Positions 1,064 to 17,603 are shown, counted from the stretch's first letter. The stretch is 64,000 bases of DNA from Planctomycetota bacterium (GCA_027296055.1 JAPUJT010000017.1:1-64000); one strand, 5' to 3'. The notes: generated by a model not told the origin, from the sequence alone. Numbers and translations: made by a program.

Positions 1064-1630
1064 ATGAGGCATGCGAGAGTGAGGGAGAGCATGGCGGTCG
1101 GCACTGTGTCTGAGAGCAATCTTTTCCCTGCCTTCACCAAGGAGACTGCCGCGTATTATGGCAGCCACGGTGGCATTCAGAGCGGCAAGGTTCGGCGGGC
1201 GAAGGGGGAGCTTCGTCGGCAAGAGGAGAGGCGAATACGTCTGCTCAAGAAGCCACGGTTGCAACCGCAGCGGGACCCGAAGACCCAGCAATTCATCAAG
1301 GGGCCGGGCGTGTATCCGTCACCGCCGAATGGTCTAAGGCCGACAACGGTTCGTGACGTGCACGGTGAGGTTGTCGGGTGGAGACCGTGGGAAGAATTTG
1401 CCGAACAAGAGGATCGCCGCAAGGGGAAGTGGGATACTCCCGAACCATCAGAGCCATCCGAGCCACCCGCGGTGCCAGTACCGGAGAAGAGGCGGACGTA
1501 CACGATTCGCAGGACCGCGATAGGTCCACTTGATTCCACAGGCCACCAGCATCGCGGGACCTGGCCACCGCCGAGGGACATGATCGAGGAGCTTGAGCGG
1601 CGGGGTTATGACGTGGTCCTTCTTCCCTGA
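1064..1630 (+). CDS. hypothetical protein, basic N-terminus and proline-rich
   Basis: 188-aa ORF in a plausible position; no family recognised. Confidence 0.45.
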   Translation: MRHARVRESMAVGTVSESNLFPAFTKETAAYYGSHGGIQSGKVRRAKGELRRQEERRIRLLKKPRLQPQRDPKTQQFIKGPGVYPSPPNGLRPTTVRDVHGEVVGWRPWEEFAEQEDRRKGKWDTPEPSEPSEPPAVPVPEKRRTYTIRRTAIGPLDSTGHQHRGTWPPPRDMIEELERRGYDVVLLP

Positions 1631-1804
1631 CTGCCACCGCGCATCTCCAGGTTGGTCGACATTTCCGCTGAGATTCCTACCCACTTCAGACTCCCCTTTC
1701 CGTCACCCCGCTGTGATAAAATAAAGCGTTAGTAGAACTTTCTCGGTCGAGTAACGGAGAACGACATGCGACGGCACTCGAAGACCTTTAACTAGGAACA
1801 GCTC

Positions 1805-2641
1805 ATGCTTTCATTCCTCAGAAATCGGCAACAGCAAGGACTGAATCCCGCGACGCGTGGCACTACGCACTACGAGATTCTACCGCTCACCGCGTTCGAG
1901 CCTGTGACGATTCCGATGAACGATGGACAGGTGATTTTGACACGCTCGGTGGGCAATCCCGCGGGAACGACATTCGGGACGAATATTGGGGGTCTTCTTC
2001 TTGGCAACAATCTGTTCGTCGACCCGCAGTCTTCTGGCGCGTCGGAGAATCTCCTGCTTCCTCTCGAGGAGCATTGCGTCGGACTGATCCTGTGGATCAC
2101 GAATACCGGCGGTGAAGGTATCGCCGTGCAGAACGATTCGGGTGGGGCGCTCGGCACGATTCCATCAAACGGGTTCGGGACAGCTCTCTGTGACGGAACG
2201 ACCTGGCAACTGGACCTAACTGACGGGCAGACACTCGTCGCGAACACTCAGTTGACGAATGCTCAGATGCTCTTGGTCGCAGGGACGCCAGTCACTTTGG
2301 TTCCGGCTCCCGGAGCTAACAGGGGGACCATCATTCACAAAGTTTACCTTGTGTGTGATTCCTCCGGTGGAGCCTATACGGCAGGCGCTGCCGATGACCT
2401 TGAGGTTCAGTATGCCGGTGGGGTGAACATCTCTGCGGATATTGAGACTTCTGGGTTCATCGATACGGGAGGCGTGGAGAGGCGGACGTACGGTGTTCTC
2501 GATAGCGAGGTTATCGTGACGCCGAACGTTGCGGTGGAAATCTTCAACAACGGTGGCGGCGAATTTGGAGGTGGAAACGCGGCGAATACTCTCAGTGTCC
2601 GTGTCTGGTACAGCACCGTAGATACCGTTCCCTTCTCGTAG
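1805..2641 (+). CDS. hypothetical protein, possibly a phage-like structural (virion) protein
   Basis: 278 aa, Gly/Thr/Asn-rich beta-type composition, C-terminus NTLSVRVWYSTVDTVPFS; no signal peptide. Confidence 0.5.
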   Translation: MLSFLRNRQQQGLNPATRGTTHYEILPLTAFEPVTIPMNDGQVILTRSVGNPAGTTFGTNIGGLLLGNNLFVDPQSSGASENLLLPLEEHCVGLILWITNTGGEGIAVQNDSGGALGTIPSNGFGTALCDGTTWQLDLTDGQTLVANTQLTNAQMLLVAGTPVTLVPAPGANRGTIIHKVYLVCDSSGGAYTAGAADDLEVQYAGGVNISADIETSGFIDTGGVERRTYGVLDSEVIVTPNVAVEIFNNGGGEFGGGNAANTLSVRVWYSTVDTVPFS

Positions 2642-3022
2642 GCCCGAGTAGTGCGATTGAATTACCTGGCGTTGATGATTCGTCGGCCTTCCCTAACTCC
2701 AAAAAGATGAACGCGGCGAGGCTTTCTTGGGTTCCCGGAGCCCTCATTCCGCCGCTGGCGGAAAGCTGTCGAGAGCCAGGCGGATGATGTCCCCAGCGAC
2801 TTGGGGCTGCCCATGCCCCCGTGCACCGAGGAGCATACGGGCGTTCGCCTGGGCGGAATGGCCGGTTTTGGGTGATCGATGACAGCGGGTTAGGGGTGCG
2901 GAAGTGCAGGCGATCCTAGCCTAGTACCCCCCTGCCAAGACCTAGATCAGAATTTTGGGATGGGGACGGATGGTGAAAGGTCGTCAGCCTGATGGGAAAA
3001 CTGCGATACAACGTCTGCCATG

Positions 3023-3430
3023 TCAGCGACTCTTTTCCGATTGTCCGACGAAATCAAGAGCCTGCTTCTTGGTAAGCACGGAATACCTACAGGGAGTCGT
3101 CCCATAGCACGCCCACTGTTCCCAAAAAACCTCGTCCGTCAGATCGTCCCAGGTCCAGTACAACAATGCACCGTTCTGATCGAATACGTACACTGTGCGA
3201 CCGTCGTTCGGCCACCTATACCCAGTGTTGGCGGTAATGAAAACCCTTCCATCATGAGTGTGGAGTTGAATCTCGCGCGGGTCCGGTTGCCATTCAAGAA
3301 AAGTCTGGAGCGAAACAACCGATGAGGGAGGTACATCCTGCCTGACCCAATACACGAATGTCGCACACGTCCCCAGCAGAACAACAGAGAACGCCAAGAT
3401 GAGTAGCCGCGCGGCATTTCTCACATTCAC
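3023..3430 (-). CDS. small membrane-anchored protein
   Basis: 135 aa, N-terminal TM (AARLLILAFSVVLLGTCATFVYWV). Confidence 0.55.
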   Translation of the reverse strand: MNVRNAARLLILAFSVVLLGTCATFVYWVRQDVPPSSVVSLQTFLEWQPDPREIQLHTHDGRVFITANTGYRWPNDGRTVYVFDQNGALLYWTWDDLTDEVFWEQWACYGTTPCRYSVLTKKQALDFVGQSEKSR

Positions 3431-3492
3431 TAACCTAGGTCAAACACCAAGATTCCGATGTCCCCCCTGTGCGCCGCCTTTCACCATCTAGA

Positions 3493-4707
3493 TCATACTG
3501 ACCCTCCCCACCGCTCGTGGCCGGTTTTGAGTGACCGATGACACAGCCGCTCGACTCCCATAGCCAAGAGGTAGGCCGTAGCAAGTGCAATTATCAGATC
3601 GATGAGGAACTCGACAGGCATGAAACCGTAGTCGCGATAGACGCTGCCGGGCACTATCTTGCTGCCGATGAAGATGAATGGGAATCCCTTCACGACCCCC
3701 TGTACGGCCCCACCACTATAATCTGAGTACAGGTGGCTCCCACTGTCCTTCTGCGGAATGGTACAGAGCGTCACCCATAGCCAGAGTATCGCGAACATCA
3801 ATAGAATGGCTGGGAACCGAGGGAGAAACTTCGGCCATCGGAATCTGATGCTCAGCCATCGGAATCTGATGCTCAGCATCCATCGTAGCACCCGCCGAAA
3901 TCTTAGACTCAGCACCGCCCATTTTTGCACCGGCCGGTCAGTACCCCACGCGAGAACCCAGCCTACGACCACAGCCAACAGAAGGTCCACGAGATACGGG
4001 GTGAGTCGAAACCCGGTGTAGACGGGGTCGGGTCCCCACCACATTGCGTAGAAGGGCAGCGGAAATCCATGCCCGATCCAACCTGACGCGAGCTTGGTTC
4101 TAGGCCCTAGGTAATATGTGCCCCGAAAGTACGTGCAGAGCACAGCCCAGACAACTAGCACTGCAGGCATGAGAAGGATAGCGGGGTATCGAGGCAGGAA
4201 TCCAGCCCATCGGGATCTCGTAGGCGGCTGCCAAAGGATCACCCTGGAGAACGCCAACACCACGACCGCGGCAGTGGTTATCGGAATTGGGGCACCATAA
4301 GTCGCGAGCCCAGCGTAAATTACTAGAAGCCCAGCGATGAGACCCACCGAGAGGGCAAATCCTACTACGTTCACCCACCTCAACACCTTCGCTCTGTGAC
4401 TCCCCACCTCTCCTAGAGAGCGGCGCGCCCCAATCGAGAACCAGAGAGGGCTGAGCAGACCCATCCCAAGGAGAACACTCGACTCCCGATAATCGATAGC
4501 CCAAACAATCAACCCCCGAATAGCGGTCGGGTCCGCACCCCGCCAATGACCGAACACCACGAGAGCTTGCGCCGCGGTCCCGATGACACCGCTCATGACG
4601 TAGCGGAGCGAGAGAGGCGCTTTGAGCCGGATGTAGACGGCCTGGGGCAAAGAGAGGAAAACAACGAAGAGAACTATCAAGCAGATGCCAGCCACTTCTA
4701 GGTCCAT
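3493..4707 (-). CDS. polytopic membrane protein with internal domain duplication
   Basis: 404 aa; two similar blocks RWAGFLPRYPAILLMPAVLVVWAVLCT... and RWPKFLPRFPAILLMFAILWLWVTLCT... Confidence 0.65.
   Translation of the reverse strand: MDLEVAGICLIVLFVVFLSLPQAVYIRLKAPLSLRYVMSGVIGTAAQALVVFGHWRGADPTAIRGLIVWAIDYRESSVLLGMGLLSPLWFSIGARRSLGEVGSHRAKVLRWVNVVGFALSVGLIAGLLVIYAGLATYGAPIPITTAAVVVLAFSRVILWQPPTRSRWAGFLPRYPAILLMPAVLVVWAVLCTYFRGTYYLGPRTKLASGWIGHGFPLPFYAMWWGPDPVYTGFRLTPYLVDLLLAVVVGWVLAWGTDRPVQKWAVLSLRFRRVLRWMLSIRFRWLSIRFRWPKFLPRFPAILLMFAILWLWVTLCTIPQKDSGSHLYSDYSGGAVQGVVKGFPFIFIGSKIVPGSVYRDYGFMPVEFLIDLIIALATAYLLAMGVERLCHRSLKTGHERWGGSV
3834..3875. repeat. two perfect 21-bp tandem copies of gccatcggaatctgatgctca
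   Basis: Direct reading at 3834-3854 and 3855-3875; encodes repeated LSIRFRW. Confidence 0.9.
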
Positions 4708-4963
4708 GAGCCCAGTCTACCAAGCAGGTATCAGCCCCTCCAGCGGACAGGGCGACGTTTGGTTTGGCCGGGGAGCGACAACACAGGGAAACAGCGGGGG
4801 AAGGGCAGATTGAAAGTCGGACGCCCCGCCTATGGGAATGCGAGCCAATGACAAGGAATCCAGCGCCTCCCAGTCAACCCTCCTCGACATGCCCGAATAT
4901 CTCTCGCTAGAATGAGGGGTGTCAGAGGCTCCGTAGTATCATGACGTCCGCAGACTTTCCAAA

Positions 4964-5881
4964 GTGACACCTCCAGCAGATCAGCCGAGAATGCGCCCAA
5001 GCGTGTGGCTCTTCATGCTCGTCATGGGTGGAATGTGCCTCCTCGTGGTTGGAGATAGTCACGCTTGGTTTCTCGACCTGCTTGCAACAGGAACGCTGCA
5101 TAACCTGACCTACTTCCTTGCGTGGGCGATTGTCGGCGCGGTGTACGGCCTCCTGGCCTCATTCATGTGGCTTCGGTGGGCGCGTCAGCTTGGCCGGGTA
5201 AGGCGAGTTCTGGGGATGTGTCTTCTCGTGGCACTGATGATGGCAGGCAGCCAAGTGGCAGCTCGCAGGGTCATGCATCCACTCAACCTGTTCATCGCCA
5301 ACTGTGAATGGGACCAGGATTCTCAGGAGTTCGAAGTTAGCCTCGCATCCACCAGCCAAGCTTTCGCCCAGGCACGGAGACGAGGGAACCTGCAAGTCAT
5401 CGTTTCAGTTGAGGGGCTTTGGTGGAGCCCATCGGAAATGAAATCACCGCAACCGCTCCAGGCAAATGAGGTGGAAGAGTTCGCCGTCGGCGCGCCGGTC
5501 CTTCTGGGTAACCGTCAAGCAATCCCCCACCCGCCGGACGGGTTCGTCGGCGTGCCTTGGCATGTTGGTGAATTCGACGTGCCTTGGAAGCCGAGGGTTT
5601 TCGGGTCTCGTTGGGCCTATATTGCTCGGGTGAGCGCCGCGATTGTGAATCGAGATGGAAAGAGAGTGGGTGGGGAATTGACCCGTTACCGCGTGGGGGA
5701 TAGCTTCCCCCCGCGCGGATGGGATTCAGCCGATCCCCATCGGTCTCGCATAGACGCGTTCATGACTGAAGGGGGAGACTGGCTGATGGACCCTGATCGA
5801 AACCGGGCTCCATTTCAGTTCCGGCCACCGCCGCTGCAGGGTGTCGTCCGCGAGGACGTTCGAGTCAACCCGAGAAAGTAG
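4964..5881 (+). CDS. membrane protein with soluble C-terminal domain
   Basis: 305 aa, N-terminal TMs followed by a hydrophilic domain. Confidence 0.55.
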   Translation: MTPPADQPRMRPSVWLFMLVMGGMCLLVVGDSHAWFLDLLATGTLHNLTYFLAWAIVGAVYGLLASFMWLRWARQLGRVRRVLGMCLLVALMMAGSQVAARRVMHPLNLFIANCEWDQDSQEFEVSLASTSQAFAQARRRGNLQVIVSVEGLWWSPSEMKSPQPLQANEVEEFAVGAPVLLGNRQAIPHPPDGFVGVPWHVGEFDVPWKPRVFGSRWAYIARVSAAIVNRDGKRVGGELTRYRVGDSFPPRGWDSADPHRSRIDAFMTEGGDWLMDPDRNRAPFQFRPPPLQGVVREDVRVNPRK

Positions 5882-6222
5882 TGGCTTCGTAGCGGTGGGC
5901 TCGATGAGAGAAGCCCGCGACCCCGAGCCGAACGGAACCAGCCTTGGTGTGTTGACTCGGGGCCGCGAACACACTATTCAATTGTCTGGCATGGAGATCA
6001 ATGGAAGCGCCAGATGACCATGTCGCCCGCGCTCGCCCCGGCGACGAAAACGCGCTCGCAATCATCCAAGCTGAGGGCCCAGCCACCGGCGCTATTGAGG
6101 ACTGTCCTACTTTCCGTGCATAGGCGTGTATGTTGGAATTCGCCACAGCCTGAAGACAATGAATCCGGGTGCTGTATGCGACTCCGTGAACGAGCGTGCA
6201 TGTTGAAACCGTGAAGGCCGAT

Positions 6223-6582
6223 CTAGCTTGGGATTTCGGCCTTATTTCTCTCTCGAGTCGATGTTGTAAGACGGTCCATCTCGGCCCAGCGCCTATCACG
6301 GGCTCCTCTAACGGCACGGAAGACGATGAAGAGCACGATAGTTATTGGTATCCACGCGAAGCCAGCAATGAGCACGAAGACTATAGCCACCTTCTCGTCA
6401 CCAGTGACGCGTGTGACGCGTGCGAGTAGGACGACCTCGTCACGAGTGACGAGTACGAGTGCGCCGACAAGTCTCCCAATGAACGAGCCAATGAACGAGC
6501 CAAGAAAGTAGGCCAAGACTAAATCGATGGCCCTTCCATTAAAACGTTGTGATGGGAACCGCTCTAGCTCATGGGCTTCCAT
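6223..6582 (-). CDS. small membrane protein
   Basis: 119 aa with TM segments and GSFIGSFIG short repeat. Confidence 0.4.
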   Translation of the reverse strand: MEAHELERFPSQRFNGRAIDLVLAYFLGSFIGSFIGRLVGALVLVTRDEVVLLARVTRVTGDEKVAIVFVLIAGFAWIPITIVLFIVFRAVRGARDRRWAEMDRLTTSTRERNKAEIPS

Positions 6583-7086
6583 CCCTCAACCCTCCAGACG
6601 TAAAAGCGCCACCCATTCGGTCTTCGGAACCTGTAGATCGTCCATGACCCGCTAGGCCCCGGCCCAATTCAACGTTCGGGACACGGGGTAATGTAAGCCC
6701 TGGGGCGCTGCACATCTAGCAAGCCGAGGCTCTACCTCTTTGCGGGGGAATCACTCACATGGCCCGACGGGGTAAGGGCCAACAGAGTCAGACTGGCAGC
6801 GTACACCGCGTGCCTGGTGAGCGGGGACATGGCGACCTCCATCTTGAGCAGATGAGTTGGTAATGGGACTCTCGAGCGGCCCGGATGGTAGGCGGGGCCG
6901 GGGGCCGGGGTCAAGGCCGGGCGAAGCCAGGGGGCCAGGGGCATCGTTTCGCTTGGGACGGGCGCTATGCTATCCCGGATCCGATCCCATTTCCGTTTAT
7001 CCTCGGAAAGAGGCCTAGAGGATCCGCTCTGGGCCTCCTCTCATTCTAGGGAGAAACTTGTCGCCCCTGCCACATCTCCCCAAATT

Positions 7087-7767
7087 CTAATCCTCCTGAC
7101 GGAACGACTCCTGGGATGTGAGTATCGTTGTTCCCCAGTTACTCTTTGTCTCTAAATAGATCTCATAGAAAACGCTAGCTCGGATACTTTCCTCACTGGT
7201 GTTCGCAAGGATTTCGTCGCAAAAACGATAGTCATCCGCACTCCCATCGACAGCCCGCATGACTGCATTGTGATAATCACTCCCCGGGTCGAACTCCACT
7301 CTCGAAGGAAGAAGCAACTCCGCAAAGATGTTCAGTTGTGCCGTATAGAAATGGAGGAGAATGTACATTCTTGTGATCAGCGCCTCCGCCTCTGGCGACA
7401 ACTTGACGGATGGCGGTTCCTGGAGGCTATTCTTGATGGACTCCGAGAAGTCCGTAAATACCTTGGCGAATCGGTCGAGAGCGGCATCGTCCTTCTTTGG
7501 ACGTTCTGTCGCAAACTTGGTGAGTCGATCGAGCTGTCTTCCGGTGATCTTCTGCAACGCATCGGTCTGCGTCTCGATTTTCGTAAGTGAGTTGGAGACG
7601 CGAGACTCCGTTTTCCGTCCAGTGAGATAGAAGACAAGGGCTAGTGCGATCGCTACGAACCCAAGAATGACCGAAACGACACTTGCGATTATGCTCCATA
7701 CCGGCAACGCTGAAACAACCTGGGCAGAATCTTGCAGCACTATAGTACCTCCTTCTTTTCCCCTCAC
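7087..7767 (-). CDS. single-TM coiled-coil-type protein
   Basis: 226 aa: TM (WSIIASVVSVILGFVAIALALVFYL) followed by a helical region TKIETQTDALQKITGRQLDRLTK. Confidence 0.55.
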   Translation of the reverse strand: MRGKEGGTIVLQDSAQVVSALPVWSIIASVVSVILGFVAIALALVFYLTGRKTESRVSNSLTKIETQTDALQKITGRQLDRLTKFATERPKKDDAALDRFAKVFTDFSESIKNSLQEPPSVKLSPEAEALITRMYILLHFYTAQLNIFAELLLPSRVEFDPGSDYHNAVMRAVDGSADDYRFCDEILANTSEESIRASVFYEIYLETKSNWGTTILTSQESFRQED

Positions 7768-7930
7768 GACCCCGGGGACATCGGGCTGCTGTAGCTTCTC
7801 GGCTCCGCATTCCGGTTCAGGGCCATCCTGGTCGACCCAAGATGCGGGCCCTTCCTCTTGGCATGAGAGAGGACGGCCTTACGATTCGCGCCATACGCTA
7901 GAGCAGATCCTCGAGGCGGCGTAGGCGACG

Positions 7931-8677
7931 CTAGCTGGTCCTCCGCCTGGCTGCTTCCCCGCCCCCCTCTCCAACGGGCTTCGGTGGTTCTGGTTGATTC
8001 GTAGGTTCTGCCTCGCGAGCTTGATCAAGCGAGGCGAAGGTCGGTGCGAGTTCATGAAAGTGAGAGACGTCTCGGACGACAGATAGCCCGGGTAGTTCAC
8101 CGCCCGTGGCTCGATTGGGGACATATGCAGAAACGACTCCTACCAGGATGACGGGTGCGCCCTCTTCGGGAGCTAGGAAAAATGCTGGCCCTCCACTGAC
8201 ACCATTGATCGCCACACCGTCTACTAGGTAAGCGCTCTGCCTTTCGAGCCAGGCACTCACTCTCCCTGAAAAAAAGCAGAGGTTGGCGGATGATACTGCC
8301 GGAAAACCAAGCCACGCTAGTTCATTCCCCACCTTAAAATACTTGTCTTTCGGAGCCAGAGTCAGTGGGCTCGAAGGGAGTGGAAGCTGCCCACGGTCGA
8401 AAATGATGGCAGCCGTGTCACGAATTGTATCGAGAAGCACAGCACGTGCGTCGCGCCGAATCACAATTGAGTTGCCAGACCCCTCATGGTCTATGCGGAT
8501 GGGCTCCTCCCAGTAGTGAGCGTGGTCAACAACGTGTGCGGCAGTCGCCACTCCACAGATGTTGCTATTACTGGTGTTCGAGATTAGAAATCCAGTCCCG
8601 GAATTACTCGGAGTCGAGATCCGAACAATGTGTGGCCGTAGATGCTCTACAGCCTGTGGCCAATTGGTCTCTGGCAT
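7931..8677 (-). CDS. trypsin-like serine protease, cytosolic type
   Basis: GTGFLIS, AAHVVDH (His), DTAAIIFD (Asp), GVSGGPAF (Ser); intact S1-like triad; no signal peptide. Confidence 0.75.
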   Translation of the reverse strand: MPETNWPQAVEHLRPHIVRISTPSNSGTGFLISNTSNSNICGVATAAHVVDHAHYWEEPIRIDHEGSGNSIVIRRDARAVLLDTIRDTAAIIFDRGQLPLPSSPLTLAPKDKYFKVGNELAWLGFPAVSSANLCFFSGRVSAWLERQSAYLVDGVAINGVSGGPAFFLAPEEGAPVILVGVVSAYVPNRATGGELPGLSVVRDVSHFHELAPTFASLDQAREAEPTNQPEPPKPVGEGGGEAARRRTS

Positions 8678-8933
8678 GTATTATGTCCTCTCTTGTCGCT
8701 CTCAATGTCTGCCTAATCTAGCATCCTGGGACAGAGGTCATGATGTCCCACCTCCTCCGCCGATTCAACCCCCCGCACCTGGGCTCTCCTCCACCCCCGT
8801 GTCGACATCCCGCTTCCGTAGCTGACCCTCGACGCGATGGGAATGGTCTAGGGTCCCCCGCCCGTGTCACGACAAGGTGGGCCGCTCAGGTCGTATGGGG
8901 AGTTCGTGGCGGATCTTGTAGACCCGGAGTGGC

Positions 8934-10067
8934 GTGGGACCCTATACTGCGGCAGGTCCCGGTCGAGATACTGCTATGAATCGATTCTGGCGTTTCCATA
9001 TCAGTGGCAACAGGCGGCTTCTGACAGCCGTTATCATCGGCGTCTCCGCCTTGCCCTTATCACAATGTCGCCGCGCCCCCTATCAGCCGGACCCCAGGCG
9101 AACACAGACGACCCCGGCATCCGAGGAGGATCGAATTCTCGGTAGAATGGAGGCCATCCAGGCCGAGATCCCTAGGCTGACTCCCCACCTCTCAAGCCGA
9201 TGGAGACGCGCCCGGACGATCTCGGCGCGACGAATTTACGCCCTGCAAGTGGAATACGTAAACCTGGAGCGCAACGCCCTGCAAGTGGAATACTTAAACC
9301 TGGAGCGCAAGTGGGATCTAAAGCGTGTCCGAAAGGCCCTGGACGCCCGCGATAGAGCGGTTGCAGAACAAGAGGAACCCCAGCGAGGAGACAATTCTGA
9401 GTGGGATCAGCTCCGCCAGAGTGAGAACGAGATCTTCGCACGTCGGGATCAGATCGATGATGAACTGTTGAGGACACTCCTAGACTTGAGGGCCCACGCA
9501 CAGCCCAGAATCGGGGAGGTCGGTGAACGCCTGCTTGTAATCTGGGCCGAGGGGGAGGCCATTCGGGAGATGCGAGAGGAGCTATGGGAGATACAGATGA
9601 AACGGCTTATGCGGAGAGTGCAGGTTAAACCTCTGCCTCCCCCTCGACTTCACTGGATACCGTACACGGATGGTAAGGCATATCGTCAAGGACAGGAGCC
9701 GCATACGGAACTGCCACCGGAGGACCAGGTCGATGAACGCCTCAAGGAGATCAACGAATTCGTCAAAGAGATCGACGGTGAGGCTAAAAGGGCCATCCAA
9801 GACTTGAGCACTGACGCAGATCCAACGGCTCAGGCTGCAGGGAAAAAGATGCTTGCACTCGCGGCGGAGTCGGATGCTCTTTCGAAAAGGCATGATGTGA
9901 TCTCGGCCAGGAGGGCGGAGGAGCAGAAGCGGCTCTGGCGGGATCTAGCCGACGGAGAGATCTCCTTGAAAGAGCTGGAGGCGAGGCTCAAGGAGATCGG
10001 GCCACTGTGGGACGTGGTCATCCTGCGCTCGGTTTTGGCCGGTCGATCCCGAACTCGCGGGCGATGA
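8934..10067 (+). CDS. lipoprotein-like, helical/coiled-coil protein
   Basis: 377 aa; true start probably MNRFWRF; hydrophobic stretch ending LPLSQC; charged helical body. Confidence 0.55.
   Translation: MGPYTAAGPGRDTAMNRFWRFHISGNRRLLTAVIIGVSALPLSQCRRAPYQPDPRRTQTTPASEEDRILGRMEAIQAEIPRLTPHLSSRWRRARTISARRIYALQVEYVNLERNALQVEYLNLERKWDLKRVRKALDARDRAVAEQEEPQRGDNSEWDQLRQSENEIFARRDQIDDELLRTLLDLRAHAQPRIGEVGERLLVIWAEGEAIREMREELWEIQMKRLMRRVQVKPLPPPRLHWIPYTDGKAYRQGQEPHTELPPEDQVDERLKEINEFVKEIDGEAKRAIQDLSTDADPTAQAAGKKMLALAAESDALSKRHDVISARRAEEQKRLWRDLADGEISLKELEARLKEIGPLWDVVILRSVLAGRSRTRGR
9238..9309. repeat. 36-bp in-frame tandem duplication
   Basis: acgccctgcaagtggaatac(g/t)taaacctggagcgca twice with one mismatch; encodes ALQVEY(V/L)NLERN. 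Confidence 0.9.
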
Positions 10068-10371
10068 GATCCGCCACGGTCTGAATCTCCGCCTCGCCGG
10101 TAATCATCCCTGAGTCGTGGTGTTGACTGAGGAGGCGGGCGAAGTCCTCAGAGTTGGCATCTCGCCACTGGATGATGATCCTCTGCTCCCCTGGGTTCAG
10201 GTCCACCTCGCCCTTGAGGATGCCCAATATGATCGGCTTGGCCTCCCGGAGCCTGGCCAGGGTGCCAGGGTCCAGGACACCAGCAGGCCCCCGGTAGGTG
10301 ACGGCCTCCCCCTTGAGGGTGAAGGTCACCCCCCGGCCCCGCAGCTCCAAGAAGAGGTCGACGGCGGTCAT
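10018..10371 (-). CDS. TubC N-terminal docking-like domain protein
   Basis: MTAVDLFLELRGRGVTFTLKGEAVTYRGPAGVLDPGTLARLREAKPIILGIL matches the TubC_N pattern often found next to MGE helicase/primase genes. Confidence 0.55.
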   Translation of the reverse strand: MTAVDLFLELRGRGVTFTLKGEAVTYRGPAGVLDPGTLARLREAKPIILGILKGEVDLNPGEQRIIIQWRDANSEDFARLLSQHHDSGMITGEAEIQTVADLIAREFGIDRPKPSAG

Positions 10372-11993
10372 AGCTGCCCCTCCACTTCAAGCTGTTCTGG
10401 TGGCTGTTCCGCGGTGTCATCGGGAACAGGGCGCGGAACAGGGCTATCTTCAACCTCGTCAACGGGTTGCGCTTGCCTGTTCTGCTGTTCTTCCCCTAGG
10501 GGTGAGGAGGGAGAACAGGGGGGTGATTCCGAGGTCTCTTCCTCGCCCGAGAGGAGGCTCGTCTCGGCTGGCGGAGCCTCCTCTTTGGCCTTCGAAGCCT
10601 CCGCCTTGGCCTTCTCGTCGTGCCTAGATTTCAGTTCATACTTCCCCTCTTTCTCCTTCACCAGAACCTTCACGAGAACCTTGTTCTCAACCATCATCAG
10701 GAGGTGCTTTCTTATCGTTGGCCGCGCCGGTTTCCTTCCCTCCAGGAAGTAATCGAGCGCAGTCCAGACACCCTTCGGCGTCATGGCCCCACGTTCCTTG
10801 ATCGCATCGATAATGGCTGCATCTACGGTGACTTGCTGGGTTTGGCTGGCCTCGCCGTCAAGGCTGTACGTCCGAGTGGGGAAGTTGAACTTGAGGGTGT
10901 AGTCCTTCTCTTCGACGCCACGACCCTGGACGTTGAGTGTTGTTCCCCCATCTGAGCGACCGAGATGGAGAATCATGTCAGACGCACCCGCCAGGGCTTG
11001 GCTTCCGAGGGGAGCATGGATTGGGTCCCCCTCTTTCGCTTTCTTCCCCGAGTGGTGTATCAGCACGACAGCCAGGTGGTGGCGATCGCCAACGCGCTTG
11101 AGTGCTGTCAGGTCGCCGTAGATCGTCTCGTAATCTTTGCGGTCCATATTGGGGGAGGAGACTCTCCCGTAGCAGTCAATGACGACGAGCTTCGCCTGGG
11201 GATGATTGTGTATCCAGCCCTCAAGCACATCGGGGAGTCCCCGGTTTATGGGTGGGACGTCTAGCGTGATCAGTCCGATTCGAAGCCCCACCGCACGCGG
11301 GATGCCCCCGTCCTCCGTGGACATCGCCTCGAAGTCAGTCTTGATCGTCGCTTCCGGGTCCTCCAGGCTGACGAGAAGCACGTCGCCTTTCTCTACGTCC
11401 TCCCCGAGTGCTACACCCCCCCGCGCCACAGCGAGGGAGACGCCGCGCATTAGTGTGCTCTTTCCCTTCTTCGGATCGGCCGTGATGAGGGTAAGTCCTT
11501 CGCGGATGAAGTTGGGAACGATCCATTGAATCGGGGGGGGCGGGTTCTGGATCACCTCCTGTAGTGTGCGAATCTTGGGGCGGTGCTTCATCCGGGAGAG
11601 ACGCATACCAAGCCGGATCGTCTGTTCCTCTGTGTCGTAGAACTTCGCGAGCCGGGCAACAACAGCGTCCTCCCTGTCCTTTACGTCACGTTGGTTGTTC
11701 GACTGGCGGAAGTCAAAATCACCACCGCTCTCATCGTCTAGGCGATCTTTGGAGGGATTGAGGAGGGCTTTGGAGCTGCTACCAATTTCGGACAAGAGGT
11801 CTGCATCCGACGCGGTCGCTTTCGCCTTCCCTCCCGTTTCCGACTGGTCCGCGTGTGGCTCCTTGCCGTTTCTCCCCGCTTCGTCGTCAAGATGGAAAGG
11901 GACGGTCCCTTCCTTGCTGAAGTCTGCGGCAGACAAGTCCCCATCGCGCTGGAAGTCGCCCAGATCCTTCGCCTTCTGTTCAGAGTCTTTCAA
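10368..11993 (-). CDS. RepA-like AAA_25 family ATPase/helicase
   Basis: Walker A ADPKKGKSTLM, Walker B LVVIDCYG, LIHHSGK motif; overlaps neighbours by 4 bp. Confidence 0.8.
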   Translation of the reverse strand: MKDSEQKAKDLGDFQRDGDLSAADFSKEGTVPFHLDDEAGRNGKEPHADQSETGGKAKATASDADLLSEIGSSSKALLNPSKDRLDDESGGDFDFRQSNNQRDVKDREDAVVARLAKFYDTEEQTIRLGMRLSRMKHRPKIRTLQEVIQNPPPPIQWIVPNFIREGLTLITADPKKGKSTLMRGVSLAVARGGVALGEDVEKGDVLLVSLEDPEATIKTDFEAMSTEDGGIPRAVGLRIGLITLDVPPINRGLPDVLEGWIHNHPQAKLVVIDCYGRVSSPNMDRKDYETIYGDLTALKRVGDRHHLAVVLIHHSGKKAKEGDPIHAPLGSQALAGASDMILHLGRSDGGTTLNVQGRGVEEKDYTLKFNFPTRTYSLDGEASQTQQVTVDAAIIDAIKERGAMTPKGVWTALDYFLEGRKPARPTIRKHLLMMVENKVLVKVLVKEKEGKYELKSRHDEKAKAEASKAKEEAPPAETSLLSGEEETSESPPCSPSSPLGEEQQNRQAQPVDEVEDSPVPRPVPDDTAEQPPEQLEVEGQL

Positions 11994-13000
11994 AGTCCTG
12001 CCCCTTCGCTTACGAGTTTCCTGATTTGGCGAATGTCACTACAGCGGTCGCGGAGACTTCCCGAAATGAGGTCTCGATACCGTCTGCCCGTCATGTCGGG
12101 ATCGGTGCCGATGATGATGCTGGTGTCGGTTGGAACGCGTGCTGCGATCTCGCGGGTCCAACTCCCCGACACGATGCCGATGACCGCGGGCGCGTTCTGA
12201 TTGGCGTCGGAGAATTTCGTTGCAGTTGCGAGAAAATCTATCGAACCTTCGACGATTATCAGGCCCACGTCGCGAACATAGTCGGCAGCGTCCGATTCGT
12301 CTGTGAGGGTCTCACCGGAGAGCATCAAACGAGCGAGCGAATCCGCCAAGATCAACCCGCTCACCGCATGGCCTGTGGGCGATAATTCCTTCAGCGCCCC
12401 GACTTCGAGACGACGGCCGCGCAGGCTACGGGTTCTTCCCTCTACGTCGGCCATCGGCACGATGAGCCGGGCGCCCATAGCCACCCACGAACCGCCACGA
12501 GTTACAGCCCACGGCGGCAACTCGATATCGACAGGCAAGACTCTGGCGAGATCGAGAGTCTCAACCATGGACGGATCGATCTTCCGTTCTTCCTGTAACC
12601 AGCGTGATACAGCTGGGTCGTCACAGACCGGGCGACATAATTCCCAGAGCGCCTTCACTTCCTCGGCTGGCGGATACTCTGGTGGCGGAGCGGGTGTGCG
12701 GCGGTATGGCCTGGGTGCAGGGGTGGCGAAGTCGGTCGTTGTGATGCCGATGAGCTTCGCTAGGTGAATTTCATTTCCGCGAAGTGCGCAGGCTCTACAG
12801 ATAAAGAGTCCCATTTCAGAATTCGCTGGCTCCGGGGTGAAGTGGATTGAGGGGTGTAGGTCCGGATGGTCCGGTGCGAGGCAATGGAAGACAACAGACT
12901 TTCCTCGCCACCGACCGTTGTAGTCGCTCATCAATATCGCAACGATTCTCTCGGCTAGAGCTGTCATAAAATCCCCACCGTCCGTTCGATGGCCATCCAC
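11990..13000 (-). CDS. DNA primase-like protein (CHC2 zinc finger plus Toprim)
   Basis: N-terminal C-H-C-C zinc-finger spacing (FHCLAPDH...FICRACALRG) and Toprim IIVEGSIDFLA...IIIGTDPDMTG. Confidence 0.8.
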   Translation of the reverse strand: MDGHRTDGGDFMTALAERIVAILMSDYNGRWRGKSVVFHCLAPDHPDLHPSIHFTPEPANSEMGLFICRACALRGNEIHLAKLIGITTTDFATPAPRPYRRTPAPPPEYPPAEEVKALWELCRPVCDDPAVSRWLQEERKIDPSMVETLDLARVLPVDIELPPWAVTRGGSWVAMGARLIVPMADVEGRTRSLRGRRLEVGALKELSPTGHAVSGLILADSLARLMLSGETLTDESDAADYVRDVGLIIVEGSIDFLATATKFSDANQNAPAVIGIVSGSWTREIAARVPTDTSIIIGTDPDMTGRRYRDLISGSLRDRCSDIRQIRKLVSEGAGL

Positions 13001-13230
13001 AAAGCCGATTCGACCTCGATGTCTCTCAGGTTCAGGCCAAGGAAATCTCGGAGCTTGTAAACTCGGAAGCGCGTTGAGTCTGGATCGAAACCGGACTCTA
13101 GGAGGGATATCGCCCTGTCATGGAGAATCGTCATGCTGGCCGCGGTTCTTCCGCTAGTCATGGCGGTTTCCCTGGCAATGTTATCTCTTGCGATAAGTTT
13201 GATTGTTCGGTAGGATTCGATTGTCGTCAC
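12964..13230 (-). CDS. hypothetical protein
   Basis: 88 aa, overlaps the primase start; consistent operon order. Confidence 0.45.
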   Translation of the reverse strand: MTTIESYRTIKLIARDNIARETAMTSGRTAASMTILHDRAISLLESGFDPDSTRFRVYKLRDFLGLNLRDIEVESALWMAIERTVGIL

Positions 13231-13270
13231 TCCGTTGGCGGGGGCTCCACACCCCCGTTAGATATTCAGA

Positions 13271-13615
13271 TCAGCCCATGCGGGTTTGTTTCCTGCGTGG
13301 GCTGGTTGCTTTTTTGGCACTACGCTGAGGCTGTTCGTTCAGGAAGTCGATATGCCGTGGATCGGCGGTCGGGAGTGATGCCGATTCGCCAGCGGCGTGA
13401 TGGGATGTGTCTGGCGCAAGGCTAGGCGCCAAGCTCGGTTCGACTCGCTGTTCTTCGAGCCATCTCCCAAAGTCGCGAGCCAGTAGAGCGCGACGTTTTC
13501 CGAGTTTGAACGTAAGGCTCTGTAGGCCAGGATGGCGACTGAGGAAAAGACGAAGCGAGGACTTCTTGAGCTTCAGTGCGTCACAAATATCTTGGGTGAA
13601 CAATATCTCGTTCAT
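13271..13615 (-). CDS. small DNA-binding (HTH-like) protein
   Basis: 114 aa, MNEILFTQDICDALKLKKSSLRLFLSRHPG; overlaps upstream ORF by 4 bp. Confidence 0.45.
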   Translation of the reverse strand: MNEILFTQDICDALKLKKSSLRLFLSRHPGLQSLTFKLGKRRALLARDFGRWLEEQRVEPSLAPSLAPDTSHHAAGESASLPTADPRHIDFLNEQPQRSAKKATSPRRKQTRMG

Positions 13616-13887
13616 GCTTCAACTTGGGTGGTGGTCTTCTCCACCAGACGGGATACGTCGGCCTCCCATACACGCAGCCTAAGTCGTCTGTAGGGATTCT
13701 TTCCCTTCTCACTCACAGCGACTCCGCGCAGTTTCCCTAGAAGGATCAGATTCTCGATCCCCTGAATATCAGTACGCAGTCTTTTGGCGGCGTCCTTTGG
13801 GGTCAAAAGGCGCAGCTCCTCGGACTGTCTCGGCATGAAGGTTCTCCTTTCGTCGTAAGCCTCGACTCTGGCCAGATTTTGCCGCAT
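13612..13887 (-). CDS. excisionase/MerR-like HTH protein
   Basis: LLTPKDAAKRLRTDIQGIENLILLGKLRG...RVWEADVSRLVE. Confidence 0.5.
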   Translation of the reverse strand: MRQNLARVEAYDERRTFMPRQSEELRLLTPKDAAKRLRTDIQGIENLILLGKLRGVAVSEKGKNPYRRLRLRVWEADVSRLVEKTTTQVEA

Positions 13888-14010
13888 TCCTTAGATCGCG
13901 GGTTGGTCCAGCTTTTATGGCAGCGAAAAGCTGGACCACTGGCTTTGTCGTATGTGGCGACTATTGGCGGGGATATGTTGGTGTGTTGGTCGCGGTGGGC
14001 AGAATGCGGG

Positions 14011-15627
14011 CTAGTCAGCCTGGTCGTCTTCTGGGTCGGAATCAGCGCGGTCGACTACAATTAGAGGCTGCCTATGCTCTTGGATTTTCCTCTTGCTCGC
14101 AGCCTCGATCCGTTTCTTGATTTCCTCTTCCGATTTGCTTTCCTCTTCCGATTCGCTTTCTTCCTTCTTGGTTTCCGATGAGGGTCCGGGGCATAGCTCA
14201 TTTGCGATCCAGCCCTCGCTGTACTCTCCGGTCATATATCTGGGGTCAGCGCGGTACTCGGATGCCATATTCTCGTTTGATTCCCGGCCGACAAGGCGGT
14301 ACGGCCAGTCCGTTCCGAAACCGTAATGCTCCCATGTCTTCTTGAATCTCCCAAGGCAGGACGCATCAGTACCGCCGAAGCGTTTTTCCTCAATTACGTA
14401 GTCATGGATCTGCAATGCTCGTTCCCTTATCCGGCGAGCCCGTTCACTGCCATTGAGCACGTAGAAATGGGAAAGGGGGCCGTACTTTTCCAGCACTTCA
14501 CGAAGAGCTGCCACATACTTGAGTTGTACTTTCCATCTTCGAGTAGTTTTCTCTTCAGGGCCGTCCACCTTCTTCTGGATTTCCCTGATGTGGCTATCGT
14601 AGAACTCCTCCATTGCCCTCTTGAAATCTGTCAGGCTAAGTCTCCAGTCAAGCGCGATCGTAATGTGGCTTTGTGTTCTGAGCGTAGGAACGTGGACCGC
14701 AACTCCGTCTTGCTTCGGGGCGTCGGCCTCGAACGCGCTGATCATCTTTTGGATGCTAGCTTCCCGTTCATCGTCCCTTCTCTGCTGTTTTTCAATCTTG
14801 CGAAAGCGATCATTCAGCTTCTCATCGTACTCTTCCTTTTCGCGAGCGTACTTCGCCATCTCTGGAGAGTGCTCATCCTGGGTGCATCCCGGAGGTGGCG
14901 TGGGCTCTATTGGACGGGGGTCTAGCATGGGTTCGTCTGGGCGCGGCCCAACTATGGCTATTGCATCGTCGCGATTACGGCGGCAGGCAATGGCTTTTGC
15001 AACGATAGCCCAAGATTCAACGGGGAGCGTCATCGTCTCTGACGGGTCCCCGGTCCACGCCTCCGCAACGGATGGTTGCTCTCCAGGTACGTCGGGTGGA
15101 AGAGCATGGGCGGTGGGGCCGTGGTCGAAGAGGTCGAAGACTCCCATGCCTGATTCGAGCGCCTTGGGGTCTAGCGCGAAGAGAATCGGCCGGACATGGG
15201 ATAGGGTGATTGGAAAAGTCTCGGGGCCTTGAGGCAATGGGCAGGGTATCTGCGGGTTGGTGTGGATGATCGGCTCCACACCTTCATTGGCCAGCAACCA
15301 ATCGCTACAGACGTTTGGACTCAACAGAAACGGCAGGAATCCGTACTCGAGTGCCAACAGATCGGATCGGGGCTCATTGATTTGGTACAGGGTGGCGTTG
15401 TCCATGAATGGCTCCCAGACTGCCCGGTATCTGGGATTTATACAGAGCGCCTCCCAGTAGACCGCCTGCATGTAATGGTGGGGTTTGGCTTTTGCGAGTC
15501 TCTTGCTTGGAGACTTCTTAGGCTTCCGCGGCGTGGACTTCTTGGCGTGGACTGTCCGAGGTTTGCGACTGGTCGACTTCTTCTTTGTTCCGCGCGCCGT
15601 AGATTTATGGGATGATTTCCGTTCCAT
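14011..15627 (-). CDS. hypothetical protein with Lys/Ser/Pro-rich histone-H1-like N-terminus and acidic C-terminus
   Basis: 538 aa; KSTARGTKKKSTSRKPRTVHAKKSTPRKPKKSPSKRLAKAKP...EESESEEESKSEEE. Confidence 0.6.
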   Translation of the reverse strand: MERKSSHKSTARGTKKKSTSRKPRTVHAKKSTPRKPKKSPSKRLAKAKPHHYMQAVYWEALCINPRYRAVWEPFMDNATLYQINEPRSDLLALEYGFLPFLLSPNVCSDWLLANEGVEPIIHTNPQIPCPLPQGPETFPITLSHVRPILFALDPKALESGMGVFDLFDHGPTAHALPPDVPGEQPSVAEAWTGDPSETMTLPVESWAIVAKAIACRRNRDDAIAIVGPRPDEPMLDPRPIEPTPPPGCTQDEHSPEMAKYAREKEEYDEKLNDRFRKIEKQQRRDDEREASIQKMISAFEADAPKQDGVAVHVPTLRTQSHITIALDWRLSLTDFKRAMEEFYDSHIREIQKKVDGPEEKTTRRWKVQLKYVAALREVLEKYGPLSHFYVLNGSERARRIRERALQIHDYVIEEKRFGGTDASCLGRFKKTWEHYGFGTDWPYRLVGRESNENMASEYRADPRYMTGEYSEGWIANELCPGPSSETKKEESESEEESKSEEEIKKRIEAASKRKIQEHRQPLIVVDRADSDPEDDQAD

Positions 15628-15932
15628 CGTGGCGTCTCACGGTGGTTGCAGCTCGGCTCCCCCGCCAGGGGGCCGGGCTTTCTTTTTAGCTGCCGGCTCT
15701 ATGCTTGGGCAAGCCGGTGAACTCTTGACTCGCTCCTGATTCCGATCCTTCTGATATTCTCCGTGATCGGCAAAAAGCCATCAACGGCGGGCCATTCCAT
15801 AACCGCAGGACTGTCAGGCCGGCTACACGAACGGCTACACTAAATCGATTCCAATCGCTGCACAATGTATGCGCAATGGATCGTGCCGAACGATCCAACT
15901 CCTTGGCCATATTGCCGTTATCGCTATTTCCT

Positions 15933-16008
15933 TGGCACGGCAGGCGGGGCTCGAACCCGCACCTTCTGGTTTTGGAGACCAGCGCTCTGCCTCTCGAGCT
16001 CCTGCCGT
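15933..16008 (-). tRNA. tRNA-Trp(CCA)
   Basis: Hand-folded: ACGGCAG/CTGCCGT acceptor, loop CTCCAAA, T-loop TTCGAGC, encoded CCA; position 8 is G. Confidence 0.85.
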
Positions 16009-16054
16009 ATGCCCTGGGTATCCCACCCCCCGGGAGACCCGAGCTCCGTGTCTC

Positions 16055-16131
16055 TGGCCCGACAGACGGGACTCGAACCCGCACGCTCCGGAGCGACAGT
16101 CCGGCGCTCTGGCCAATTGAGCTACTGCCGG
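16055..16131 (-). tRNA. tRNA-Asp(GTC)
   Basis: CCGGCAG/CTGTCGG acceptor, loop CTGTCGC, TTCGAGT, CCA. Confidence 0.9.
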
Positions 16132-16133
16132 TT

Positions 16134-16212
16134 TGGTGCGGGGAGTGGGGGTCGAACCCACAAATTCTCCACGCACTCAGCGTGGCGGCTTTTCCAGTTT
16201 GCCCATCCCCGC
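16134..16212 (-). tRNA. tRNA-Leu(GAG), short variable loop
   Basis: GCGGGGA/TCCCCGC acceptor, loop CTGAGTG, 7-nt variable loop AGAATTT, TTCGACC, A73, CCA. Confidence 0.8.
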
Positions 16213-16214
16213 AT

Positions 16215-16290
16215 TGGTGCGGCGGGTGGGACTCGAACCCACACAATTCAGCTTAAGAGGCTGGTGCCCCACCCGTTGGGCGACCGCCGC
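16215..16290 (-). tRNA. tRNA-Lys(CTT)
   Basis: GCGGCGG/CCGCCGC acceptor, loop CTCTTAA, TTCGAGT, CCA. Confidence 0.9.
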
Positions 16291-16293
16291 ATC

Positions 16294-16342
16294 GCCTCGG
16301 AATCGAACCGCGCTGGTGCCTCGCCGCGCTCGGCTTCGAGGC
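16294..16342 (-). other. tRNA-like remnant (TTCGATT loop inside a 6-bp closing stem)
   Basis: gcctcg (16294-16299) / cgaggc (16337-16342) enclosing GCGCGGTTCGATTCC; no complete cloverleaf. Confidence 0.35.
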
Positions 16343-16353
16343 CTCCACAACAG

Positions 16354-16428
16354 TGGAGCACCCGGCGGGATTCGAACCCGCGTAGACGGATTTGCAGTCC
16401 GTCGCCTCACCGCTCGGTCCACGGGTGC
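16354..16428 (-). tRNA. tRNA-Cys(GCA)
   Basis: GCACCCG/CGGGTGC acceptor, loop CTGCAAA, TTCGAAT, CCA. Confidence 0.9.
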
Positions 16429-16474
16429 ATCAATCATCACTCCGCGACTCTGGCGGGGCTCCGCGTCTCTGGGG

Positions 16475-16544
16475 TGGTGCGGTGGGTACTGCCCCCACTT
16501 TCTCCGGTTCACAGCCGGACGCATTACTTTTATGCTACGCCCAC
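16475..16544 (-). tRNA. aberrant tRNA-His(GTG), possibly a pseudogene
   Basis: Anticodon arm TCCGG-CTGTGAA-CCGGA and CCA present; T-loop reads GGCAGTA and the 3' acceptor strand is shortened (CGC-A-CCA). Confidence 0.6.
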
Positions 16545-16559
16545 CATGGATCTCTCCGG

Positions 16560-16619
16560 TCCGGCTCCCGAGAATCGAAGCCGACGCCTCTCGGTGATCG
16601 GCCGTGCCCTTGGAGCCGG
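16560..16619 (-). other. 60-nt D-armless tRNA-like element
   Basis: Perfect 7-bp acceptor CCGGCTC/GAGCCGG, A73, T-loop TTCGATT, 3-bp anticodon-like arm CGG-CCGATCA-CCG; no D arm. Confidence 0.4.
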
Positions 16620-16628
16620 CGCTTACCT

Positions 16629-16704
16629 TGGCGCGGCGGGTGGGAGTCGAACCCACACTCTGCGGCTTAGAAGGCCGCTGCTCTTCCAGTTGAGCTACCG
16701 CCGT
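16629..16704 (-). tRNA. tRNA-Arg(TCT)
   Basis: Loop CTTCTAA, TTCGACT, CCA; A1/C72 mismatch. Confidence 0.85.
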
Positions 16705-16706
16705 TC

Positions 16707-16791
16707 TGGCGGAAGGCCTGGGATTCGAACCCAGATGGCCAGAGGCCGGCGGTTTTCGAGACCGCTGCGTTACCAGTTACGCTAACCTTCC
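16707..16791 (-). tRNA. tRNA-Ser(CGA)
   Basis: Loop CTCGAAA, long variable arm, TTCGAAT, G73 CCA. Confidence 0.9.
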
Positions 16792-16810
16792 CTTGGCCGT
16801 GCACGGCTAA

Positions 16811-16883
16811 TGCGGCGAGCGGGATTCGAACCCACACAGTTCGGATTAAAAATCCGATGCCCGACTCGTTGGGCGACCGCCGC
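16811..16883 (-). tRNA. tRNA-Lys(TTT)
   Basis: GCGGCGG/TCGCCGC acceptor, loop TTTTTAA, TTCGAAT; CCA not encoded. Confidence 0.9.
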
Positions 16884-16897
16884 TTCGTTCGTTTCGG

Positions 16898-16970
16898 CGA
16901 GGCAGGGAGGGGTCGAACCTCCACCACCGGTTTCGGAGACCGGTCATCCTTTCCGTTAGACGACTGCCTC
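16898..16970 (-). tRNA. tRNA-Arg(CCG)
   Basis: GAGGCAG/CTGCCTC acceptor, loop CTCCGAA, TTCGACC; CCA not encoded. Confidence 0.9.
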
Positions 16971-16972
16971 GT

Positions 16973-17048
16973 TGGTGGGGCAGAGAGGATTCAAACCTCT
17001 ATCTGTCGGTTCGTAGCCGACGAATCCTGTTCGTTAGACGACTGCCCC
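16973..17048 (-). tRNA. tRNA-Arg(ACG)
   Basis: GGGGCAG/CTGCCCC acceptor, loop CTACGAA, T-loop TTTGAAT, CCA. Confidence 0.9.
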
Positions 17049-17049
17049 T

Positions 17050-17124
17050 TGGTTGGCCCGCCAGGATTCGCACCTGGATTTCGCGGTTCAAAGCCGCGCT
17101 TCTTGCCTATTAGATGACAGGCCA
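17050..17124 (-). tRNA. tRNA-Gln(TTG)
   Basis: TGGCCTG/CGGGCCA acceptor (U1-A72), loop CTTTGAA, T-loop TGCGAAT, CCA. Confidence 0.88.
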
Positions 17125-17130
17125 TCTGTC

Positions 17131-17206
17131 TGGCTGGCCCCCCAGGGCTCGAACCTGGACTCTTCCGCTTAACAGGCGGACGCTCTACCCATTGAGCTAG
17201 AGGCCA
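17131..17206 (-). tRNA. tRNA-Asn(GTT)
   Basis: TGGCCTC/GGGGCCA acceptor, loop CTGTTAA, TTCGAGC, G73 CCA. Confidence 0.88.
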
Positions 17207-17207
17207 A

Positions 17208-17291
17208 TGGCGGAGAGGGTGGGATTCGAACCCACAGAGCTTTCGCTCACCCGGCTAGCAACCGGGCTCCTTGCCGTTCGGTCACCTCTCC
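17208..17291 (-). tRNA. tRNA-Ser(GCT)
   Basis: GGAGAGG/CCTCTCC acceptor, loop TTGCTAG, long variable arm, TTCGAAT, CCA. Confidence 0.9.
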
Positions 17292-17293
17292 CT

Positions 17294-17367
17294 TGGAGCA
17301 CCGACCGGGAATCGAACCCGGATCACCGGCATGGCAAGCCGGCGCTCTTCCACTGAGCTACCGGTGC
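17294..17367 (-). tRNA. tRNA-Gly(GCC)
   Basis: GCACCGG/TCGGTGC acceptor, loop TTGCCAT, TTCGATT, CCA. Confidence 0.92.
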
Positions 17368-17378
17368 GTCCGATACAC

Positions 17379-17450
17379 TGGCAGGGCCACCGGGAATCGA
17401 ACCGCTGCTCCCCTCGGGTCTGAGCCCGAGGCTCAGCCTCGGGGTCGAAG
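17379..17450 (-). other. tRNA 3'-half (GGTTCGATTCCCGGTGGCCCTGCCA) attached to a GC-rich palindromic stretch; tRNA remnant
   Basis: Canonical T-loop, 3' T-stem, acceptor strand TGGCCCT, G73 and CCA, but no complementary AGGGCCA 5' acceptor; upstream is CCCCGAGGCTGAGCCTCGGGCTCAGACCCGAGGGG. Confidence 0.55.
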
Positions 17451-17527
17451 ACAGGGCAAAATTCGACCAGGCCAGCCATGAGCGAGAGGGGGAAGCACTC
17501 GGTAGATTGCTTCCCCGTCGAGTCGAA

Positions 17528-17603
17528 TGGTGGTGACGGCTGGAGTCGAACCAGCAACGCCGCGGCTTTTCGGGCCACCGCTCTTCCGTTGAGCTACGTC
17601 ACC
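17528..17603 (-). tRNA. tRNA-Phe(GAA), C33 variant
   Basis: GGTGACG/CGTCACC acceptor, loop CCGAAAA, TTCGACT, A73 CCA. Confidence 0.85.

Follow-up and report, generated by a model that had tools for sequence, protein, structure and literature searches.

What explains a single locus in which many tRNA genes carry unusual bases at near-invariant positions? In elongator tRNAs, the elbow pairs G18-Psi55 and G19-C56 and the U8-A14 pair are regarded as near-universal. The window, a stretch of 64,000 nucleotides from a Planctomycetota bacterium, contains a dense run of tRNA genes in which a sequence-only reading saw deviations from these rules, and for which it considered relaxed or altered selection, with decoys, nuclease-resistant tRNAs or decaying genes as examples. 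With the Rfam model, 16 tRNA genes are found on the minus strand between 15933 and 17603, and their covariance-model scores, which that reading had named as a check, range from 33 to 68 bits and all exceed the gathering cutoff. ARAGORN reports 14 genes and misses His and Gln. The array and its probable remnants are arranged as follows.

15933-16008, minus strand: tRNA-Trp (CCA), last array gene in the window; G8 with G14
16055-16131, minus strand: tRNA-Asp (GTC), free of deviations
16134-16212, minus strand: tRNA-Leu (GAG), long variable arm gone (7 nt), A73 retained
16215-16290, minus strand: tRNA-Lys (CTT)
16291-16353, minus strand: probable tRNA remnant, T-arm-like GGTTCGATTCC at ~16299-16309; no complete tRNA and no match at E<=1 with tRNA model R1
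16354-16428, minus strand: tRNA-Cys (GCA)
16474-16543, minus strand: tRNA-His-like (GTG), 33 bits, poor acceptor, damaged or very divergent; T-loop GGCAGTA (G54, G55, G58), D-loop AAAAGTA (A18 G19)
16547-16628, minus strand: probable tRNA remnant, T-arm-like piece at ~16570-16581
16629-16704, minus strand: tRNA-Arg (TCT), A1/C72 mismatch
16707-16791, minus strand: tRNA-Ser (CGA), long variable arm retained (14 nt)
16811-16883, minus strand: tRNA-Lys (TTT), no encoded CCA (TTA follows)
16896-16970, minus strand: tRNA-Arg (CCG), no encoded CCA (CCG follows)
16973-17048, minus strand: tRNA-Arg (ACG), U56 with A19, the 19-56 pair being retained as A-U
17053-17124, minus strand: tRNA-Gln (TTG), G55; D-loop AATAGGCA, which leaves position 18 ambiguous between A18G19 and G18G19
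17131-17206, minus strand: tRNA-Asn (GTT)
17208-17291, minus strand: tRNA-Ser (GCT), long variable arm retained (14 nt)
17294-17367, minus strand: tRNA-Gly (GCC)
17380-17450, minus strand: probable tRNA remnant, T-arm-like GGTTCGATTCCCGG and then a GGCCCTGCCA end; T-arm pattern matched
17528-17603, minus strand: tRNA-Phe (GAA), first gene of the array; C33

The odd bases are present as the sequence-only reading had described them: G8 in Trp, C33 in Phe, G55 in Gln (T-loop TGCGAAT), U56 in Arg-ACG (TTTGAAT), A1 opposite C72 in Arg-TCT, the T-loop and poor acceptor of His, and the missing CCA of Lys-TTT and Arg-CCG in an array where 13 of the 16 genes encode CCA. For His, an alternative acceptor is possible (TGGTGGG/CGCACCA, 6 of 7 pairs, starting at ~16546), after which would come C73 but no clean CCA. 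Two features go beyond that reading, namely the window Leu without its long variable arm and the changed tertiary partner that accompanies most of the odd bases. A search for a sigma-70 promoter upstream of the array on the minus strand, which is uninformative for this phylum, found none. Beside the Phe gene, a 104-bp stretch (17452-17555) is 88% identical to C181:25380-25483, near the chromosomal Leu-CAG gene.

The repeat, the contig orientation and the isotypes described below indicate that a 21-gene array appears to have been split by an integrative element of ~28 kb in tRNA-Trp. A second small tRNA cluster, C78:12252-12735, consists of a 3' piece of Trp followed by Glu, Pro, Val, Thr and Met, isotypes that are absent from the window array. 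A 51-base repeat links the 3' end of the window Trp (15933-15983) to C78:12271-12321 with 98% identity and is the putative core of the attachment site, while the first 122 bases of contigs C79 and C78 are identical and in opposite orientation. A tyrosine integrase (PF00589, E=1.6e-30) at C78:10954-12147 ends ~120 bases before the Trp piece, which is the arrangement expected of an integrative element at a tRNA gene, an integrase adjoining a direct repeat of a tRNA 3' end. Within the window, the element would comprise the following features.

1-15983, no strand assigned: putative window part of the ~28-kb integrative element in tRNA-Trp; remainder and integrase on C78, by an inferred join
10368-11993, minus strand: element gene for an AAA_25 / DnaB-like helicase
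11990-13000, minus strand: element gene for a Toprim primase-like protein
13612-13887, minus strand: element gene with a weak match to excisionase (E=0.0016)

No phage structural genes were found among the element proteins scanned. A 538-aa protein next to the attachment site (14011-15627, minus strand) has no Pfam or NCBIfam match and only a marginal PHROG match. The 6.2-kb contig C46 has the same 122 bases, is 94% identical to window 1-598 over C46:1-598, and represents either a second copy of the element or a strain variant. Since it shares the 122-base end, the assembly graph branches there and the C78-C79 join carries a caveat. Rejoined, the gene order would be Phe, Gly, Ser, Asn, Gln, Arg, Arg, Lys, Ser, Arg, His, Cys, Lys, Leu, Asp and Trp, continued on C78 by Glu, Pro, Val, Thr and Met. 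At C97:28107-28171 (L019:608-672), a ~48-nt 5' piece of a canonical tRNA-Trp is possibly the scar of another integration.

The deviant bases are concentrated in the array. At positions 8, 33, 54, 55, 56 and 58, 6 of the 20 alignable array tRNAs deviate, compared with none of 34 elsewhere in the genome (Fisher p=0.0015). The C78 part contributes Glu (C33) and Val (C33, G55), and C33, an anticodon-loop position, is accordingly found in Phe, Glu and Val. In the relative G055, 7 of 20 array tRNAs deviate versus 1 of the 29 best-scoring chromosomal tRNAs, a comparison set that is biased toward canonical members through its choice by score.

One explanation for this concentration is decay: a horizontally acquired tRNA cluster that is no longer under selection would accumulate random substitutions at invariant positions. 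This corresponds to the published reading of 'degenerate tRNA gene clusters' in Planctomycetes (PMC4807772). It agrees with the redundancy of the array, in which nearly every member has a canonical gene of the same anticodon elsewhere in the genome, and with its damaged members, which are the 33-bit His, Arg-TCT with its A1/C72 mismatch and three remnants with T-arm-like pieces. The stems argue against it. Set against their same-anticodon chromosomal counterparts, array tRNAs average 64% identity, and among 381 stem pairs compared in this way, 204 are the same, 149 are changed on both sides, 21 are changed on one side and 7 are broken. The pairing fraction over 20 array tRNAs is 0.99 in the acceptor, 0.98 in the anticodon, 1.00 in the T and 0.94 in the D stem, as detected with models that reward pairing and therefore under-count badly decayed copies. 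Cloverleaf stems are maintained in all but His, the discriminator bases fit the isotype almost throughout, and the elbow contacts 18-55 and 19-56 are either maintained or compensated, with Gln being ambiguous. Compensated pairs are seen in Arg-ACG (U56/A19), Trp (G8/G14) and the Val of C78 (G55/A18), and the damaged His has A18 together with G55.

The same swaps recur in related bacteria. Arrays were identified in 18 other genomes of the phylum by a three-T-arm pattern, and 409 of their tRNAs aligned well to a model built from the chromosomal tRNAs of the genome studied here; the comparison is one within the phylum and not one of orthologous arrays from close relatives. Position 55 is U in 374 of these tRNAs, G in 30, C in 5 and A in none, position 33 is U in 367, C in 39 and G in 3, and position 8 is U in 369, A in 17, G in 15 and C in 8, while position 58 is A in 407 of 409. 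Positions 8 and 14 covary strongly: 14 deviates in 31 of 40 tRNAs with a deviant 8 versus 18 of 349 others (Fisher p=2.9e-25), mainly as G8/G14, A8/U14 and C8/G14. The D-loop GG is lost in 25 of 32 G55 tRNAs and in 6 of 353 others (p=1.8e-27), with positions 18 and 19 assigned by D-loop motif rather than by structure, and with GG contained in 7 of the 32 bacterial G55 cases, including the Gln of this array. Collapsing the data to one entry per family and anticodon leaves the link intact (p=1.1e-15). G55 covaries with the replacement of G18G19 by 'AG', and changes at position 56 are mostly paired with a matching base at 19 (A-U, U-A, C-G).

These substitutions are not random, because random decay would favour U-to-C at position 55, whereas U-to-G dominates in the relatives' arrays and A58 is nearly invariant. 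The arrays of distant families are, moreover, near-complete and nearly non-redundant sets of anticodons (in G109, for instance, 35 distinct anticodon strings among 36 matches), which speaks against decay. The absence of CCA is also rejected as a sign of decay. CCA encoding varies by lineage, with whole arrays in relatives lacking it, and the genome contains two genes of the PolyA_pol/CCA-adding family, so that the two missing CCAs mean little. With stems 94 to 100% paired, matching discriminators and tertiary covariation, random decay is rejected for most members; it is already largely contradicted as a general explanation and must be considered improbable. Of the possibilities raised by the sequence-only reading, altered selection is thus supported, and decay is unsupported for most members, although His and three spacers do look damaged. 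Judged by sequence, most deviations are compensated, and the array looks like a set of tRNAs that still work in a reshaped form, not like one of decaying genes.

Viral arrays carry the same swaps. A scan of IMG/VR for arrays with at least one G55 T-arm yielded 872 distinct tRNAs, selected on position 55 and not on the D-loop, in which 87 of 88 G55 tRNAs are without GG (85 of these 87 have AG), versus 37 of 779 U55 tRNAs (p=2e-88). In a second viral scan that did not require G55, all four G55 tRNAs are without GG (p=1e-6). Swaps between positions 54 and 58 are also present, as reversed A-U pairs (32 cases) and as G-G (5 cases), and the window His shares G54 and G58. A short variable loop is equally seen in many viral Leu tRNAs, and in the arrays of many bacterial genomes 5-7 nt replace the long arm of Leu, with A73 in every well-aligned case. 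The initial observation on this locus is therefore right and more general than first described, as related bacteria and viral tRNA arrays show the same swaps.

This recurrence also bears on a technical explanation, in which consensus errors or foreign contig fragments would have produced the odd bases. The assembly is fragmented (5.26 Mb in 206 contigs, 5.6% contamination), and one contig end is common to C79, C78 and the variant contig C46. Errors of assembly or binning would not, however, yield compensated pairs. The pattern is shared by other genomes of the phylum and by two viral samples, and the window contig runs on for 46 kb into cellular genes. An artefact is hence scarcely credible.

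Loss of the Psi55 synthase was considered as the cause of G55. TruB (PF01509) is present in 14 of 14 control genomes, and searches of this genome and of several highly complete relatives did not find it. Its distribution across the phylum is patchy, though, and several G55-rich genomes have it, so that its loss was rejected as the cause. C33 remains unexplained: it has no compensating partner, a single chromosomal tRNA-Val in one relative also has it, and in the relatives' arrays it is somewhat commoner where the anticodon contains two or three G/C (p=0.004).

The array is best understood, and probably so, as an accessory and redundant backup set of tRNAs comparable to those of phages and integrative elements, kept for fold, anticodon and discriminator and released from the consensus constraint. 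The array is a dense second tRNA set with nearly one gene per anticodon. Selection would retain the tRNA fold, the anticodon and the discriminator base of its members, which would be freed from the sequence consensus of the host housekeeping tRNAs. They could then cross to alternative tertiary pairs, such as A18-G55, A19-U56 (elsewhere U19-A56 or C19-G56), G8/G14 and A8/U14, and acquire further changes, including a class-I-like Leu and sometimes C33. When transcribed, the array would presumably be matured and its tRNAs charged by the host synthetases, to serve as a backup tRNA pool, and the changed elbow and anticodon-loop bases may lower recognition by tRNA nucleases and some modification enzymes. 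The ~28-kb element would have split this particular array in tRNA-Trp at a later stage, and a few members would have decayed.

A related proposal places the tRNA-like RNAs outside translation, where they would act as decoys or sponges that occupy host nucleases or modification enzymes. It draws on the fact that positions 8 and 55 are sites of modification-enzyme action. A decoy, though, would need neither a gene for each anticodon nor discriminators matched to the synthetases nor CCA ends, and it would have no need to lose exactly the bases that such enzymes read; this proposal is very improbable.

The neutral alternative deserves more weight and is a serious possibility, if short of an even chance. 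Here, the array tRNAs are functional and evolve faster under weaker constraint, owing to low expression and redundancy, and compensation restores the fold without any escape. Covariation, intact stems and discriminators are then explained without an enemy, G55 is independent of the presence or absence of the TruB gene, and the mild enrichment of C33 in GC-rich anticodons could reflect tuning of decoding strength. Recurrence of the same swap in many viral and bacterial arrays, together with its absence from 63 chromosomal tRNAs examined, speaks against neutrality without being decisive. A further idea is tentative and rather doubtful. It holds that the tRNAs of viral and mobile arrays might be an evolutionary class of their own, selected for shape, anticodon and discriminator, with a repeated shift to an alternative elbow (A18-G55; A-U, U-A or C-G at 19-56; reversed A-U at 54-58) and core (8-14), because host tRNA-directed enzymes would recognise the consensus bases of elbow and core; the arrays would then be backup tRNA sets that systems attacking tRNAs can no longer read. 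Escape from an enemy and drift with compensation are hard to separate from sequence alone. The question whether such arrays are backup tRNAs escaping tRNA nucleases becomes directly testable. In the accessory arrays studied, elbow and core pairs have been swapped with compensation many times, and these arrays offer, as a natural experiment on a large scale, a way to tell the tRNA positions that matter for the fold from those that matter for recognition.

Bacteria, phages and plasmids are all known to carry tRNA arrays, and the portion of PMC5966550 drawn on here uses the definition of an array unit by Tran et al. 2016, with at least 20 tRNA genes and at least 2 tRNAs per kb. The window array resembles such units in its dense tandem tRNAs, its chromosome-redundant isotypes and its link to a mobile element. 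Its density (16 genes in 1.67 kb) lies within the definition, while its number of genes is 16 in the window alone and reaches 21 only if the C78 cluster is its continuation, by an inferred join. That portion of PMC5966550 treats number and synteny of array units rather than tertiary covariation. A search for close phage or plasmid relatives of the array turned up nothing but scattered matches that span no more than 12% of its length.

The locus most likely belongs to the same class as the planctomycete 'degenerate tRNA gene clusters', whose tRNAs are described as partially degraded (PMC4807772). The array of one relative includes an Ile-UAU that is CCA-ended and non-deviant, in agreement with that description. 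The PSCyt2 family, which points to Planctomycetes as the likely phylum, is present in 17 of 30 relatives, with up to 58 copies, though not in this genome. In contrast to it, most members here are intact and compensated, and only His and three remnants are degraded. The published picture of degraded planctomycete arrays is called into question by the compensation, and the covariation argues against the label 'degenerate'.

The trn operon of Anabaena PCC 7120, with 26 tRNAs, stays silent until translation inhibitors induce it (PMC10272220). It is likewise an accessory and redundant array and may, by analogy, offer a model for regulation and use, but it resides on a megaplasmid, unlike the window array. 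Phage tRNAs have been proposed to evade host anticodon nucleases (PMC10264068, PMC11555353). These are also accessory sets with changed anticodon-loop bases, and the A18-G55 and 19-56 swaps are found in viral arrays too; the array described here, however, lies in a bacterial chromosome, and both papers are concerned with the anticodon loop or with tRNA dosage rather than with the elbow. Natural non-canonical tRNAs (tRNA-Pyl, mitochondrial tRNAs; PMC7609411) miss G18G19 or TPsiC and have G8 or reduced arms, whereas single pairs are swapped here within an otherwise standard cloverleaf. The term 'A18' is absent from that review, and 'G55' from a review of T-loop nucleotides (PMC7912444), which is not proof that the swap is unpublished.

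No general conserved flanking protein that would explain the arrays was found, and the apparent shared ORF pairs L220/L206 and L204/L205 were dismissed as, by appearance, at least partly wrong-frame translations. Inside the tRNA arrays of several relatives, a conserved family of 270-aa proteins is encoded, which is marked by the motifs LCGHDERHWFVA, RQGEWFFxP and HxDHxT and matches nothing in Pfam, NCBIfam or PDB. No member was found in the genome studied here. Members are located at L219:6980-7789 and L210:5347-6177, in the arrays of G204 and G340, as well as on L253 and L254, and 16 of the 20 genomes with the family also have the array pattern (p=2e-9).
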